This document shows, piece by piece, positions 11,343 to 33,475 of a stretch of DNA of 33,556 nt; within the stretch, counting starts at the first letter, position 1, and each line of letters opens with the position of its first letter. The DNA lies in assembly GCA_009693245.1 (NCBI GenBank), contig SHXO01000025.1, positions 1 through 33,556 of the forward strand, written 5' to 3'. Source of the DNA: Betaproteobacteria bacterium (GTDB taxonomy: Bacteria > Pseudomonadota > Gammaproteobacteria > Burkholderiales > SHXO01). The notes under the pieces are model-generated. The model saw nothing but the letters and a program-made list of their open reading frames with translations, did not search any database and was not told the DNA's origin. A program made the translations under genes and the position numbers.

Positions 11343-12437
11343 ATGAAAATAACGTCCATCGAAACGATCTTGGTATGCATCCCCTTTCTACCCACCGACG
11401 GCGATACCGGCTTTGGCGGTAAGACCTGGTCCACCGTGGACACTCTGCTCGTCAAGGTAGAAACGGATGAGGGCATCACGGGCTGGGGCGAAGCCTTCGG
11501 GTACAACGTCATTCCCGCCACGAAGGCGGCGCTGGATCGGATAATCGCACCACTGCTCATCGGGCGCGATGCCACGGCCGGCGGACCCTTGATGGCGGAG
11601 ATGCTGCAGAAGCTGCATCTGTTCGGCCGCGGCGGCCCGGTGATATTCGGCTTGTCGGGGATCGACATCGCGCTTTGGGACATCGCGGGCAAGCGGGCGA
11701 AGCTCCCGGTTAACCAACTTCTCGGCGGCGCCGCGCACGCTTCCCTACCGTGCTACGCGAGCCTCATGCCCTATCACGACTCCAAAAAGGTGGCTGCCGC
11801 GACGACCCGCGCCGTCAAACTCGGATACGAGTACGTGAAGCTGCACGAGATCGCGGTGCCCGAGGTGCGCACCGCCCGGCAGGCGGCAGGCCCTGGCACC
11901 AAACTGATGGTGGACACCAACTGTCCTTGGACACAGGGCGAAGCCGTAAACATGGCAAACCAATTCCGCGAATACGATCTGCATTGGCTGGAAGAGCCGG
12001 TGTGGCCACCGGAGAACTACGCCGCGCTCTCGCATGTACGCAGAACCTGCGGGATTCCCATCTCCGCGGGCGAGAACTGCCCCACCGTAATGAGCTTCCG
12101 GCACATGTTCGAAGCGGGCTCGGTAGACATCGCCCAACCGAGCCCGACGAAGATCGGGGGCATCACGGAGTTGCGCCAAGTGGCGGCCGTGGCGGCGGTG
12201 CACAACGTGCAGGTAATTCCCCATACGCCGTACTTCGGCCCGGGCTACTTGGCGGGATTGCATCTGAGTTCCACCTTTCGCACCGTGACTCCCGTGGAGT
12301 GGCTCTTCGTGGACATGGAGACCACGCTCTACGGCGGTGCCATCGTGCCAAAGCAAGGAAAGATTTCGATTCCCACGGGACCGGGCCTGGGGTTCGACCC
12401 CGATCCCGGCGTGATCGCGCGCTTTCGAAAAGACTAA
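11343..12437 (+). CDS. Enolase-superfamily enzyme (mandelate racemase/muconate lactonizing type)
   Basis: A 364-residue protein with an N-terminal capping domain (about 1-125) and C-terminal beta-barrel. The three metal ligands are visible as Asp191 (VDTN), Glu217/218 (LEEP) and Glu244 (GEN). The barrel continues with PSPTKIGGITE and a His at 294 in IPHTPYFGPG, typical of the mandelate-racemase/acid-sugar-dehydratase subgroup. On strand 2 the usual Lys-x-Lys is Lys166-Leu-His168. Such enzymes abstract the proton alpha to a carboxylate, giving racemisation, lactonisation or dehydration. Its position upstream of a CoA-transferase and an acyl-CoA carboxylase suggests a hydroxy-acid catabolic step; the substrate is unknown. 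Gap to the next gene: 21 bp. Confidence 0.9.
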   Translation: MKITSIETILVCIPFLPTDGDTGFGGKTWSTVDTLLVKVETDEGITGWGEAFGYNVIPATKAALDRIIAPLLIGRDATAGGPLMAEMLQKLHLFGRGGPVIFGLSGIDIALWDIAGKRAKLPVNQLLGGAAHASLPCYASLMPYHDSKKVAAATTRAVKLGYEYVKLHEIAVPEVRTARQAAGPGTKLMVDTNCPWTQGEAVNMANQFREYDLHWLEEPVWPPENYAALSHVRRTCGIPISAGENCPTVMSFRHMFEAGSVDIAQPSPTKIGGITELRQVAAVAAVHNVQVIPHTPYFGPGYLAGLHLSSTFRTVTPVEWLFVDMETTLYGGAIVPKQGKISIPTGPGLGFDPDPGVIARFRKD

Positions 12438-12458
12438 CTCGCCCAAGGTAGCCCGCCC

Positions 12459-13652
12459 ATGAACGCCGGAGCGCTGGATGGCGTGCGAGTGGTGGACCTA
12501 TCGCGCTTCATCGCCGGGCCTTACTGCGCCATGCTCCTGGGCGACATGGGGGCGGATGTCGTCAAGGTGGAACCGCCCGGGCGCGGCGAGAACAGCCGCT
12601 CCTTCGCGCCCTTCATCGAAGGCGAAAGTCTGTACACCATGGTCTTCAACCGCAACAAGCGCAGTCTCACGCTGGATCTGCGCTCGGAGGGGGGAAAGGA
12701 AGTCCTGAAAAAGTTGCTCGGCCAGGCCGACGTGCTCGTCGAAAATTTCGTCCCCGGCACCATCGAGAAGATGGGGTTTGACGAAGCCACGCTCAAGAGC
12801 ATCAATCCACGGCTCATCGTGACCCGCATCTCCGGCTTTGGACAAAGCGGGCCTTTGTCGCGCAAGCCGTGCTTCGATGTGATCGCCCAGGCCATGAGCG
12901 GCATCATGGACATTACCGGCGAGCCCGATGGCCGCCCGACCATGGCCGGCACGTACATCGTGGACTACTCGACCGGCATGTACGCCACAATCGGCACCCT
13001 GGGCGCGCTGCAAGCGCGCCAGCGCACGGGCTTGGGCCAAGTGGTTGGCGTGGCACTGCTCGATGCCGCCATGTCCATGTTAATGACCGCCATCCCCGAA
13101 CAACTCTTACTTGGACGTACGATGGAAAGACGCGGTAATCGCGACCGCTATGGCGCGCCCGCCAACACTTTCCCCACCAGCGATGGCGCCTGGGTACATC
13201 TGGCGACCACGGGCGAGCCCATGTTTCAGGCACTGATGGCGGCCATGGGCCATCCGGAGTTGGCCAACGACCCTCGCTTCAAGGACAACACCTCGCGCAT
13301 GCGGCACGCCGCCGAACTGGAACAACATATCGCCGACTGGACACGCACCCTGACCGCGCAACAACTCCTGGACCAACTCCAGGCCCTGGGCGTGCCCTCC
13401 GCCAAGGTGGCGCGCGTTTCCGATCTCGTCGGTAACCCTCACCTCGCCCATCGCGGACAGATTCTCAACATGGAACACCCCAAGGCCGGCACCGTGCCCA
13501 TGCAAGGTTTTTCCGTCCACTTCGGCGATTCGCCCATGCAGCTTCGCCATCCTTCGCCCATGCTGGGCGAGCATACGAGCGAGATTCTCACGCAATGGCT
13601 TGCAATGAATTCCAGCGAAATCGCCGAGTTGCGCACGCACGGCACCATCTGA
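12459..13652 (+). CDS. Class III CoA-transferase (CaiB/BaiF/Frc family)
   Basis: A 397-residue family III CoA-transferase. The N-terminus GVRVVDLSRFIAGPYC and LLGDMGADVVKVEPPGRGE are diagnostic. VENFVPGTIEKMG, RISGFGQSGP and QAMSGIMDITGEPDGRP follow. The catalytic Asp169, which forms the aspartyl-CoA intermediate in formyl-CoA transferase, is seen in YIVDYSTGM. GALQARQRTGLGQVV and the C-terminal dimer region complete it. The enzyme moves CoA between carboxylic acids, often from succinyl-CoA to a hydroxy or dicarboxylic acid. It starts 21 bp after the enolase-superfamily gene and precedes the acyl-CoA carboxylase by 67 bp, implying activation of an acid to a CoA thioester within one pathway. 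Confidence 0.94.
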   Translation: MNAGALDGVRVVDLSRFIAGPYCAMLLGDMGADVVKVEPPGRGENSRSFAPFIEGESLYTMVFNRNKRSLTLDLRSEGGKEVLKKLLGQADVLVENFVPGTIEKMGFDEATLKSINPRLIVTRISGFGQSGPLSRKPCFDVIAQAMSGIMDITGEPDGRPTMAGTYIVDYSTGMYATIGTLGALQARQRTGLGQVVGVALLDAAMSMLMTAIPEQLLLGRTMERRGNRDRYGAPANTFPTSDGAWVHLATTGEPMFQALMAAMGHPELANDPRFKDNTSRMRHAAELEQHIADWTRTLTAQQLLDQLQALGVPSAKVARVSDLVGNPHLAHRGQILNMEHPKAGTVPMQGFSVHFGDSPMQLRHPSPMLGEHTSEILTQWLAMNSSEIAELRTHGTI

Positions 13653-30182: not shown

Positions 30183-30410
30183 TCATCGCAACACCACGGT
30201 TCGCAGATGATGACCCACGAGCAGGGCTTGCGCGGCAACGGTCAGCGCGGGGTTCACCGCGCCCGAGGACGGAAAGAATCCGGCATCGGCCACGTACAGA
30301 TTATCGTGATCCCATGCCTTGCAAAACGGGTCGAGCGCGGAGGTGGCCGGATCGTTCCCGAAGCGCACCGTGCCGCACTGGTGCGACACGACGTCGGTGC
30401 CGAAACGGCA
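30183..30410 (-). pseudogene. C-terminal fragment of a second GMC oxidoreductase
   Basis: About 75 residues (FGTDVVSHQCGTVRFGNDPA, LDPFCKAWDHDNLYVADAGF, FPSSGAVNPALTVAAQALLV) match only the C-terminal substrate domain of a GMC enzyme, with the His in SHQCGT and Asn in VNPALT. It is a different branch from the adjacent full GMC, which reads HHPVGTCRMG. All upstream parts, including the FAD-binding Rossmann fold, are absent. At about 30401-30412 the sequence changes to a transposase in another frame. The reading frame open to 30560 upstream of that point is not GMC. Nonfunctional remnant. Confidence 0.85.
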
Positions 30411-30598
30411 AGATGCACGTGATTGGAGGTGACGGCGTGGTTGAGTACGCAGATTCCGTATCGCTTTCTCGACTCGAACAACCAGCGCGAATAGACTGCC
30501 CGCTCGCGGGCAAATTGGAACAAGATAGCGCGCTCGTGGCACCAGTGGGTGAGATGCCACACGTGGCCGGGCAAGAAATAGCGACGGGCGCGAGGCAT
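30401..30598 (-). pseudogene. N-terminal fragment of a REP-associated (IS200-like, RAYT) transposase
   Basis: Starts MPRARRYFLPGHVWHLTHWC, characteristic of REP-associated tyrosine transposases, and continues with RERAVYSRWLFESRKRYGIC and the HUH motif HVH in SNHVHLAV (His60, His62). Just beyond, at about 30401-30412, the similarity stops and the DNA is the GMC C-terminal fragment in another frame. The catalytic Tyr region and the rest of the protein are missing. A deletion or recombination joined it to the GMC gene, so it cannot transpose by itself. Confidence 0.85.
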
Positions 30599-30809: not shown

Positions 30810-31943
30810 ATGAAGATTACAGACATCCAGGTGCTGGAACTAGCGGGCCCGCCGTTGCCTTACCCCATGAAGCCGGCTTGGGCACCGGGCAGTCAATGGA
30901 TGCGTTATGGCGGTACCGTGGTCAAGGTCTTCACCGACGAGGGGATCACCGGTCTGGGATCGCCGGGCTACACGGTCTCACCCAAGATCGATTCCTGGAT
31001 AAAACCTCAGCTCATTGGCCAAGACCCTTTCGCCTTGGAGCGTCACGCCCGCGTATTTCGCGGCGCGGGCGAAGCCTGGGGCGTGGAGATCGCCCTTTGG
31101 GACATCATCGGCAAAGCCTGCAACCAGCCGGTGTACAAACTCTGGGGCGGTTATCGCGACCGGGTCCCCGCCTATGCATCTTGCATCGAAGTGCGAGAAC
31201 CGCTCGCGCGAGCGCGGGATATCGCACTCGTGCAAGCCGGCGGCTGGCGCGCGGCCAAGCTGCGCATTCACGAGCAAACCCTGAAGGCCGACATTGCCCA
31301 GGTGGAAGCGGTGCGTAACGCCGTGGGGAGCGAATTCGCGCTACTGGTGGATGCCAATCAAGCCCAGTTACCCGGCACTCAACAACCCGCGAGAAGCATC
31401 GTTTGGAGTTATGAACGCGCGTTGCACACCGCGCGCGAGCTCGAACGCCTAGGTGTGTACTGGCTCGAAGAACCGCTGGGCCGGTACGACTTCGACAATT
31501 TGTCGCGGCTTGCGGCAGCGGTGGACATCTTGATCGCGGGCGGCGAGAACAATCTCGGCTTGCATGAGTATCGCTGGCTGGTGGAGCGCAATTGCTACGA
31601 CGTGCTGCAGCCGGAAGCCATGGTGGGAGAAACCATGAGCCAGATCCGAAAGGCCTGCGCTTACGCCGAGATGCATCACAAACTCTGCGCGCCGCACCAC
31701 GGTGGCGGCGGAATGGGATTCATAGCTCACCTTCATCTTTGCGCGGCATTGCCTAACTGCCCCTTCGTAGAGGTGTTTCACGATCCGCCCGGATTCACCA
31801 GCGACATCTTCCAGTGGTATCTCGCGCAACCTGTACGGCTGGATCCCACCGACGGCTGCATGCCCGTGCCGGACAAACCCGGTTTCGGCGTGGAGTTGGA
31901 CGAAGACAAGATCGCACGTTACGGGCGAATCCTCGGGTCATGA
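30810..31943 (+). CDS. Enolase-superfamily enzyme (second; acid-sugar dehydratase-like)
   Basis: A 377-residue member of the mandelate-racemase/muconate-lactonizing superfamily. The metal ligands are Asp181 (VDAN), Glu220/221 (LEEP) and Glu246 (GEN). Strand 2 carries Lys150 with Arg152 and His154 (AKLRIHE) instead of the standard Lys-x-Lys. The later barrel region is PEAMVGETMSQIRKACAYAE and a His-rich HHGGGGMGFIAHLHLCAAL. The C-terminus DKPGFGVELDEDKI is family-typical. Distinct from the enzyme at 11343. Its stop overlaps the Nramp-like transporter start by 4 bp (ATGA), so the two are translationally coupled. By inference the transporter imports the substrate or the metal. Confidence 0.9.
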   Translation: MKITDIQVLELAGPPLPYPMKPAWAPGSQWMRYGGTVVKVFTDEGITGLGSPGYTVSPKIDSWIKPQLIGQDPFALERHARVFRGAGEAWGVEIALWDIIGKACNQPVYKLWGGYRDRVPAYASCIEVREPLARARDIALVQAGGWRAAKLRIHEQTLKADIAQVEAVRNAVGSEFALLVDANQAQLPGTQQPARSIVWSYERALHTARELERLGVYWLEEPLGRYDFDNLSRLAAAVDILIAGGENNLGLHEYRWLVERNCYDVLQPEAMVGETMSQIRKACAYAEMHHKLCAPHHGGGGMGFIAHLHLCAALPNCPFVEVFHDPPGFTSDIFQWYLAQPVRLDPTDGCMPVPDKPGFGVELDEDKIARYGRILGS

Positions 31944-33304
31944 GAAAAGACCCTTACTCCTTTGACCCCGCGGCAATCGAAGAACCGCCGAGCACCCTGG
32001 GCGGCACGCTATCGCGTATTGGCCCGGGCATGTTGTTGACCGCGGCAATCGTGGGCACCGGCGAGTTGATCGCAACCACCCGCTTGGGGGCTGACGTGGG
32101 TTACGTAATGCTGTGGATGATTTTGTTCAGTTGCCTCATCAAGACCGTGGTGCAATGCGTTTGGGGCCGTTACACGGTGGCCACTGGTGAAACGGGCCTC
32201 GCCGCGCTCAATCACTTTCCCGGCCCGCGCGCGCGCGGCGTCAATTGGGTAGTGTGGACCTGGGGGATCATCATCTTGCTCTCCTTGCCCTTGATCGGCG
32301 CCATGTATGCCGGTATCGCGCAGGTGATGGTGCAGTTCATCCCCGCCCTGCCCGAAGGGGTGTGGGTCGTCATCCTGACGTTCGTGACATTGGCCGTGCT
32401 GCTGCGAGGCGCTTACAGACACGTCGAGTTCCTCGCCGTATGGATGGTGGCGGTCTTCACCTTGATGACCTTGTGCGCCGCGGCCATCCTCACCAGCCAG
32501 CCGGAATACTTCACCTGGGGACAGATGGCCGGTGGTCTCAAGTTCGATCTCCCGGAAGAAGGCATCGTCGTGGCAATCGCCGTCTTCGGCATCACCGGCG
32601 TTAACGCCGGCGAGCTATCCGCTTACCCCTACTGGTGTGTGGAGAAGGGCTACGCCCGCTTCGTGGGTCCGCGCGAGGAGAGCGAAGCCTGGCGCCGCCG
32701 CGCCAAGGGATGGATACGTGTCATGCACTTCGACATTTTCGTTTCCATGTGCGTGTACACGCTGGCCACCGTGGCGTTCTACATGCTCGGCGCGGGCGTG
32801 CTGCATACCTTGGGACAGATACCCAAGGGCAACGAAACCATCGCCGTGCTCTCCAAGATGTACAGCGAGACCATGGGCAGCTTCGGCTTGTATTTGTTCT
32901 ACGTAGGCGCCATCTTCGTGCTCTACAGCACCGTGTTCGCCGCCACCGCCGCCAATTCCCGAATATTCGCCGACATGATGCGGCTGATGGGACGCTTCAT
33001 GGCCAATGACTACGACGCACGGCTGCGCTACCAGAGACTGTTCACCATCGCGCTCTCCGTGATCCCGTGCATCATCTACTTCGCCACTGGAGAACCGGTG
33101 CAAATGATCAAGGCGGGCGGCGTGGTGCTGGGCTTGATGCTCCCGGTGCTGGCATTCGCGGTCTTGTACCTCCGCTACAAGAAGCTCCCTCCGGACGTAG
33201 CTCCCAGCCAAGTGACGACTTATATTCTGTGGTTCGCTGCCTCCGTCATGTTGGTGACGATGGTAGCGTTTGTATTATTGCAGGTGGGGGTAATTAAGAA
33301 CTAA
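31940..33304 (+). CDS. Nramp-like transporter lacking canonical metal-binding motif
   Basis: A 454-residue membrane protein with about 11 hydrophobic helices. The Nramp fold is recognisable (RIGPGMLLTAAIVGTGELIA, YVMLWMILFSCLIKTVVQCVWGRYTVATGETGL). The hallmark DPGN of TM1 is replaced by GTGE (residues 39-42), and TM6 has ITGVNAGELSAYPYW rather than the Met-Pro-His motif. Canonical Nramp proteins use the TM1 Asp/Asn and TM6 Met for Mn2+ or Fe2+, so this protein probably moves something else, or a metal by another site. The start is ATG 31940, overlapping the enolase stop; an in-frame upstream extension to 31814 lies within that gene. Coupling suggests a substrate-transport role. Confidence 0.88.
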   Translation: MRKDPYSFDPAAIEEPPSTLGGTLSRIGPGMLLTAAIVGTGELIATTRLGADVGYVMLWMILFSCLIKTVVQCVWGRYTVATGETGLAALNHFPGPRARGVNWVVWTWGIIILLSLPLIGAMYAGIAQVMVQFIPALPEGVWVVILTFVTLAVLLRGAYRHVEFLAVWMVAVFTLMTLCAAAILTSQPEYFTWGQMAGGLKFDLPEEGIVVAIAVFGITGVNAGELSAYPYWCVEKGYARFVGPREESEAWRRRAKGWIRVMHFDIFVSMCVYTLATVAFYMLGAGVLHTLGQIPKGNETIAVLSKMYSETMGSFGLYLFYVGAIFVLYSTVFAATAANSRIFADMMRLMGRFMANDYDARLRYQRLFTIALSVIPCIIYFATGEPVQMIKAGGVVLGLMLPVLAFAVLYLRYKKLPPDVAPSQVTTYILWFAASVMLVTMVAFVLLQVGVIKN

Positions 33305-33416
33305 CCCGCATTTATCACAAGCCGCCCCGATGTGCAATGCCTCTTGGTTTTTCCAAGGCTCGCCATGGATCGGACATCACTGCCCTCGCGGACAACGGGC
33401 TGCACGGGAGTCTTAT

Positions 33417-33475
33417 CCAATATGGTTTGAGTCTGAAGGTGGGATCGTATTTCCAACATGGTTTGAGTCTGAAGG
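33417..33475 (+). repeat. Two 23-bp direct repeats upstream of a mobile-element gene
   Basis: CCAAnATGGTTTGAGTCTGAAGG occurs at 33417-33439 (n is T) and 33453-33475 (n is C), 36 bp apart, identical apart from one base. No such repeat was seen elsewhere in the window. It precedes the start codon at 33515 and could be the left-end transposase-binding sites of an insertion sequence. Positions 33305-33416 show nothing I can identify. Confidence 0.8.

Follow-up and report, generated by a model that had tools for sequence, protein, structure and literature searches.

Nramp-related, or orphan, proteins are a recognised and mostly uncharacterised group within the Nramp family (PF01566). Cellier 2022, Cellier 2023 and Shin 2014 describe the orphan and NRMT proteins as an outgroup without the Mn and proton features, and a 2026 preprint on BfraNramp (PMC12873925) calls all Nramp-related groups except the NRMT-like proteins and that of MntG entirely uncharacterised. 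NRMT proteins are reported to be Mg2+ carriers, one Acidobacterium member of which rescues Mn uptake. A precedent for a link to organic acids is PxpT, an NRAMP-family protein that C. glutamicum needs for growth on 5-oxoproline (PMC13274462, 2026); its uptake activity is itself inferred by the authors, who leave metals possible. The present study concerns an Nramp-related transporter gene that lies directly behind the gene for an enolase-superfamily enzyme on a 33,556-nt stretch of betaproteobacterial DNA (the window), which is the complete contig C25 of a 3.0-Mb genome, 97% complete. The transporter carries a GxGE motif where canonical Nramps carry DPGN, and we put at about even odds that it is a carrier of a small polar organic solute, which may be the substrate of the neighbouring enzyme.

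Results

The transporter gene (31940..33304, plus strand; ATG at 31940, stop codon ending at 33304) encodes 454 amino acids that scored 80.6 bits against PF01566 (cut-off 29.8) and 122 bits against NF037982, the general 'Nramp_1' model of NCBI (cut-off 50). The curated models NF001923 (MntH; 52 bits, cut-off 430) and TIGR01197 (nramp; 43.4 bits, cut-off 272.5) were not passed, and a comparison with PHROGs gave no useful match. A preliminary description of this DNA had read GTGE in place of DPGN and no Met-Pro-His motif (MPH) in transmembrane helix 6 (TM6), and alignments bore out both points. GTGE (residues 39-42; 32054..32065, +) aligns with DPGN in TM1, and ITGVNAGEL (residues 218-226; 32591..32617, +) stands in TM6 where canonical copies read GATxMPHN. 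The acidic proton-pathway pair of TM3 is absent as well, the CDLAE stretch of DPGN copies being replaced, in an alignment-dependent comparison, by non-acidic residues. As a PF01566 member with neither DPGN nor MPH the protein belongs to the Nramp-related (orphan PF01566) proteins and, judged from its sequence, is not a canonical Slc11/Nramp Mn importer.

Loss of DPGN is not rare; other PF01566 copies read DNDAGG, DDDPSG, GAGD, GPQD, GTGS, GVSH and further variants. In an alignment of 89 clade rows with 24 other PF01566 copies, the clade of the window transporter mostly reads GSGEL in TM1 and ITGV-x-x-x-E in TM6 (the 89 rows, and the conserved-position count given below, include two non-clade rows, L023 and L024). 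Since G39, G41, E42 and E225 were invariant in a 50-row clade alignment, the GxGE motif is a conserved clade feature and not a chance replacement. That alignment used 49 of the 57 non-redundant relatives, omitting seven with late or cut starts or ends and one spurious sequence.

Structure prediction of the TM1/TM6 site, suggested in the preliminary description, gave the Nramp fold (AlphaFold2 model, pLDDT 89.6, pTM 0.89) with a helix break at residues 221-222. The closest PDB match was DraNramp (6c3i_B, Z 38.3, the best matches lying at Z 37-38; rmsd 2.6 over 385 residues, 16% identity), followed by human NRAMP1, NRMT (7qji_A, Z 34.4) and a YcsG model (9a52_A, Z 33.2). Amino-acid carriers of the APC superfamily matched at Z 24-28; Foldseek was also used, and the absence of a family from the structural match list is not evidence. 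D56, N59, M230 and H232 of DraNramp align with G39, E42, N222 and G224, the last two unsurely because of a gap in TM6. D56 and H232 are named in PMC12873925. Going by the model, E42 and E225 would lie in or beside the place of the metal ligands and face the site; the facing is our reading of the model.

The enzyme gene upstream (30810..31943, +; ATG at 30810, TGA at 31941-31943; PF13378/PF02746) encodes 377 amino acids, and its stop codon shares a 4-bp ATGA (31940..31943, +) with the transporter start, an overlap already seen in the preliminary description and confirmed here. The mechanical list of open reading frames (ORFs) begins the transporter at GTG 31814; ATG 31940 was favoured by frame scoring and by the starts of relatives. 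Both genes are of natural length, the enzyme ending within a few residues of its orthologues and the transporter starting at about the same place as its relatives. The exact ATGA overlap indicates that enzyme and transporter form an operon with likely translational coupling.

With its MR_MLE_C (177 bits) and MR_MLE_N (38 bits) domains and a D, E, E metal-ligand pattern, the enzyme has the features of the mandelate racemase (MR) subgroup. The putative metal ligands are D181, E220 and E246, accompanied by K150-x-R152 and H296/H297; Glu269 stands where aligned PDB relatives have Asp, and the motifs are kept in four orthologues. We take these residues to have the roles that they have in mandelate racemase, and the enzyme presumably needs Mg2+. 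Its best NCBIfam scores were 135 bits for arabinonate, 125 for talarate/galactarate and 116 for galactonate dehydratase. No curated acid-sugar dehydratase equivalog model was passed (cut-offs 650, 500 and 311 bits), and a substrate is not assignable because all of these scores lie far under the cut-offs. The same genome holds a second copy of the enzyme gene (L126:8908-10022, contig C6 of G000; 84% identity), which is interrupted by both a frame change and an in-frame TAG and adjoins genes that by eye resemble glnD and methionine aminopeptidase. Another MR_MLE enzyme (364 aa) is encoded directly upstream of a class III CoA-transferase gene in the window (11343-13652) and is one of six further MR_MLE matches in the genome at E 1e-25 or better, not counting the enzyme of the pair and its broken copy.

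The survey of genomes for the same pair that the preliminary description had proposed found it neither among relatives nor in loci of the order nor beside enzyme orthologues; a conserved enzyme-transporter module is rejected on this survey, the pair having been found in this genome alone. The relatives' loci were the best 80 of 108 relatives, and many of them stop at contig ends (3 to 19 kb), where a neighbour lying upstream may escape notice. By tblastn the enzyme matched in one of the 15 transporter loci of the order, taken one per genome (L019, the second locus of the window's own genome; 29%, about 12 kb from the transporter), and in one of the 80 relatives' loci (L069; 25%, about 6 kb away), adjacent to the transporter in none. 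No transporter match was obtained in five loci holding the four enzyme orthologues and the broken enzyme copy. Among 399 genomes of the order, the transporter clade was present in 15 (E 1e-60) and an enzyme orthologue in five (E 1e-80), the window's genome being counted in both. One genome of the order, G046, encodes a protein 88-91% identical to Neisseria gonorrhoeae proteins, by which the order would be Burkholderiales in GTDB. Both genes also occur in G019, on different contigs, in G533, about 2.1 Mb apart, and in G600, 345 kb apart; G770 carries the enzyme gene without the transporter. Beyond the window's own genome, no transporter was found in samples of 369 genomes of the class (E 1e-40) and 398 of the phylum (E 1e-30). 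Multi-copy expansion was sought as a sign of catabolism and not seen: 18 of 20 relatives' genomes had one match within a 59-86-bit subtype band set by judgement, G074 had two or three, and G068 had none.

Recurrent neighbours were found in the order. Glutathione reductase (gor; two NCBIfam equivalog models passed) is encoded no more than about 2 kb from the transporter in 13 of the 15 order loci, in five genera of four families; the exceptions are G019, with tandem copies only, and G600, with a 37% relative. A RidA gene is near the transporter in 12 of the loci, a divergent gene for a YfcG-type glutathione-dependent oxidoreductase in 11 (the window's own genome has only a piece) and a Kef-type antiporter gene in eight. 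The genes keep one arrangement, and the cluster reads yfcG-like (divergent) - gor - nramp - ridA - (nramp) - kef (L019, L020, L021, L176-L181, L227-L230). In G638 our gene calls give a 4-bp overlap of gor with the transporter; other genes stand between them in L020, L021 and L178. PF01566 is matched twice in the window's genome, by the window transporter and by a copy (L019) that is truncated at the start of contig C60 and lies side by side with gor. Tandem transporter copies, present in five loci and in four of these placed around ridA, differ in TM6 (GVGATE-type vs GVASGE- or GVAAGE-type) and at TM3 positions, and a CNNM/CorC-type gene stands beside tandem copies in two of the 15 loci. None of gor, ridA and kef occurred in 29 control loci of other PF01566 subtypes, and the 80 relatives' loci outside the order gave gor in none, ridA in none and kef in one. 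A search of mainly open literature for Nramp with glutathione reductase and RidA returned unrelated titles only. A scan for operon partners covered 51 of 66 genes, omitting 15 near-duplicates of one syntenic block. Separately, in seven acidobacterial loci (L044, L065, L071, L073, L075, L076 and L082), which form one syntenic block, the transporter is preceded at 5-20 bp by the end of a gene from one cluster, a FAD-dependent oxidoreductase gene by its one scanned member.

Phylogenetically, the order's copies (those linked to gor and the tandem copies of G019) form one 17-row clade with support of 100/99, which does not include the window copy. The latter has a long branch; a careful tree groups it with the order's copies as their sister, with support of only 25/93, and a quick tree places it before both clades. 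Of the 141 positions conserved in the clade, 13 are changed in the window copy (the median of rows is 1 and the next true member has 8), including 36/40 in TM1 and 397 in TM10; such departures would fit a shifted substrate or relaxed function. Descent of the window copy from a moved second (post-ridA) copy of the gor cluster was considered and rejected, given 2 of 13 copy-2-specific residues and an approximately unbiased (AU) test p of 0.037 against it.

More distant relatives are found on plasmids. The loci of all ten plasmid records matched were read, and eight are of the GxGE type, with the motifs confirmed in seven of the eight (L167 excepted; the motif check covered loci other than L182-L184 and L186-L191). 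Acid-sugar catabolic genes adjoin four of these eight, corresponding to three of six lineages: Rubrobacter (UxaA family, mandelate-racemase family and a lactate-racemase domain), two Streptomyces (four-carbon acid sugar kinase, PdxA, aldolase family and a dehydrogenase, with no second transporter annotated in the stretches) and Halocatena (mannonate dehydratase, dihydrodipicolinate-synthase family and aldehyde dehydrogenase). Two Skermanella loci hold an SLC13 permease with sugar genes, and the Microscilla locus a SusD/GH43 set. Among 13 still more distant PF01566 plasmid loci, four had lactate- or keto-acid-type genes (L185, L189, L190, L191), one an amidase gene (L234), seven nothing telling and one no annotation. 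The proposal of the preliminary description that the Nramp fold serves an organic acid here thus has indirect support from the acid-sugar clusters in four of eight GxGE plasmid loci and from the genetics of PxpT (PMC13274462); the 13 more distant loci, four of them with lactate- or keto-acid-type genes, give a mixed picture.

Several orphan Nramps from these plasmids were noted in their own right. In a Mesobacillus plasmid (L185:3454-7269) one whose TM1 reads GTAD begins 31 bp downstream of genes for CoA-transferase A/B and thiolase, a keto-acid setting with an IclR-type regulator nearby. The second orphan Nramp of Rubrobacter (L166:12292-15281; GSGEF in TM1) and its 30-32% haloarchaeal relatives in L189, L190 and L191 adjoin lactate-type genes (FAD/Fe-S dehydrogenase, L-lactate permease, or LutB/LutC-type). 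In a Rhodococcus plasmid (L234:1571-7202) an orphan Nramp gene and an amidase gene share one base, with genes for an Lrp-type regulator, a RidA-family protein and a FAD oxidoreductase upstream, so that RidA appears again next to a further orphan subtype.

Signs of metal regulation were sought around the same genes. An MntR/DtxR-type regulator was present at four of six DPGN plasmid controls vs none of the eight GxGE plasmid loci, and a heavy-metal ATPase at two of six vs none of eight; the six controls were hand-picked from 16 among 415 records, and the MntR queries were derived from four of them. In chromosomal loci an MntR-type regulator occurred in none of the 80 relatives' and none of the 15 order loci of the window's clade, an absence that weighs little because acidobacterial DPGN copies have one in only one of 11. 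A metal ATPase was near the clade in two of 80 loci. Neither an M-box nor any other metal riboswitch reached the gathering score in the window and 12 other sources. A riboswitch that might reveal the substrate was thereby ruled out for these 13 sources, in which the sole match was a group II intron.

Discussion

We propose that the window transporter belongs to a well-conserved clade of Nramp-related (non-Slc11) carriers of the LeuT fold marked by GxGE. Its most likely cargo is a small polar organic solute, probably a carboxylate, which would pass through the central site that holds Mn2+ in canonical Nramps. Two conserved glutamates, E42 from TM1 and E225 from TM6, would stand at or beside the positions of the metal ligands. 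Here, a diverged representative of the clade would have come to sit directly behind an MR-type, sugar-acid-like enzyme, and the operon, with its likely translational coupling, suggests that the solute may be the enzyme's substrate or a relative of it, presumably imported. Taken whole, this proposal stands in our estimate at an even chance; an organic solute is a plausible best guess, and transport of this enzyme's own substrate a weak one.

Several observations weigh against the proposal. The pair occurred in none of the 80 relatives' loci (49-56% identity), none of the 15 transporter loci of the order and none of the four enzyme orthologue loci (76-79%). Because the pair is unique to this genome the argument from enzyme pairing is weak, and the earlier suggestion that pairing points to import of the enzyme's substrate was not upheld: the refuting outcome named there, a random neighbourhood in other genomes, holds for this pair, and the recurrent neighbours in the order are gor and RidA. 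Acid-sugar markers were not enriched around the window's clade (MR_MLE 0/80, UxaA 1/80; controls 0-1 of 8-11); the marker queries were taken from the plasmid loci, where the counts are of annotation and not independent tests. Since the markers are no commoner around the clade than around controls, the sugar-acid idea draws on distant relatives and one unique operon. The GxGE locus on a Roseomonas plasmid adjoins a catechol-siderophore set, and a pair of conserved acidic residues would be no less suitable for a cation than for an organic acid. Finally, YcsG/MntG, a PF01566 member lacking DPGN, is argued in PMC10448178 to be a Mn importer, so that the want of DPGN is not by itself enough to rule out metals.

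The alternative that survives best, with an appreciable though less than even probability, is that the pair is an accident of rearrangement, in which an acquired transporter landed behind the enzyme with no functional link and with mobile-element scars on both sides. It would explain a pair found only here and four enzyme orthologues without the transporter, and both flanks fit it. Upstream are remnant genes, a scrambled junction (30183..30598, minus strand) comprising a C-terminal fragment of a GMC oxidoreductase (PF05199 partial, profile 77-139) and an overlapping ORF whose start, read by eye, resembles a Y1 (REP-type) transposase. Downstream are two copies of a 24-bp direct repeat (33416..33475; 23 of 24 bases alike) and the start of an ORF that runs off the contig and by eye is perhaps a mobile element. 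The exact ATGA overlap between two genes of natural length is, however, typical of a working operon and an unlikely product of a random join. An accidental pairing says nothing of what the transporter carries, and the odds given here for different readings overlap.

That the transporter is instead a non-canonical carrier of divalent cations, with E42 and E225 binding Mn2+, Mg2+ or another cation, we regard as unlikely. The glutathione, RidA and Kef neighbours of its relatives would then mark an oxidative-stress setting in which Mn import helps, and the two conserved carboxylates, the CNNM/CorC-type gene at tandem copies (2/15 order loci) and the Mg2+ that we expect the enzyme itself to need would all agree. 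NRMT (Mg2+) and YcsG/MntG (Mn2+) are reported to be non-canonical PF01566 metal carriers. This is countered by MntR-type regulators in none of the GxGE loci (0/80, 0/15 and 0/8) vs four of six plasmid DPGN controls, by the want of a metal riboswitch in the 13 sources, and by the absence of the NRMT-like motif. Least likely is that the clade serves glutathione or disulfide/electrophile metabolism, its cargo a thiol, disulfide, gamma-glutamyl compound or electrophile then handled by gor, YfcG-type, RidA and Kef proteins and the window copy a diverged relative: the recurrent cluster (gor 13/15), the overlap in G638 and the copy beside gor in L019 speak for it, but no such cluster surrounds the 80 relatives outside the order, the window copy lies outside the order's 17-row clade, and other genes intervene in L020, L021 and L178; gor could also be no more than a stable landing site. 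This reading is partly compatible with carriage of an organic solute as proposed above.

More broadly, GxGE proteins could be organic-anion carriers on the Nramp fold, tuned by branch to sugar acids (actinobacterial and haloarchaeal clusters), to a thiol, disulfide or electrophile (the order's cluster) and to the substrate of the MR enzyme here, metal carriage by Nramps being one specialised use of a site ancestrally for organic solutes; we hold this generalisation possible but rather speculative. The group bears on the open question of how metal selectivity originated within a superfamily of organic-solute carriers. All ten plasmid matches are publicly annotated as 'Nramp family divalent metal transporter', a name that may be wrong for many. 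The gor-nramp-ridA-kef and acid-sugar clusters offer concrete, testable substrates for a group called entirely uncharacterised in PMC12873925. Searches of mainly open literature gave only a metals review for Nramp with mandelate racemase and nothing for Nramp with lactate and haloarchaea. Among the matches listed, none for acid sugar, transporter, Nramp and DUF1537 named Nramp, and for Nramp with threonate, erythronate, galactarate or rhamnonate there was one plant ascorbate review that has Nramp and threonate.

Compared with known systems, the window transporter shares with canonical Slc11/Nramp proteins (MntH, DraNramp) the LeuT fold, PF01566 and its best PDB matches over the chain, and differs in having no DPGN, MPH, TM3 acidic pair or MntR-type neighbour. 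With NRMT (EleNRMT, Mg2+) it has in common the fold (7qji_A, Z 34.4) and the loss of DPGN. The copies that we labelled NRMT-like, from motifs that we take to be typical, read DNDAGG/DDDPSG in TM1 and APW/SPY in TM6; the window transporter has GxGE without NRMT-type residues, and the M-box that precedes a subset of NRMTs did not reach the gathering score in the window or the 12 other sources. The enzyme resembles MR-subgroup acid-sugar dehydratases in its best model scores and metal-ligand pattern, and is unlike them in scoring far under the cut-offs. At E up to 1, PDB sequence matches to the transporter did not include YcsG (the presence of its chain in the file was unchecked). Like PxpT/YcsG, the window transporter is an Nramp-family protein in an operon with an organic-acid enzyme, their partner being 5-oxoprolinase, and the YcsG model matches its fold at Z 33.2. 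With the Nramp-related/orphan outgroup, including the 'G-motif' groups of PMC12873925, it shares membership of PF01566 without either canonical motif.

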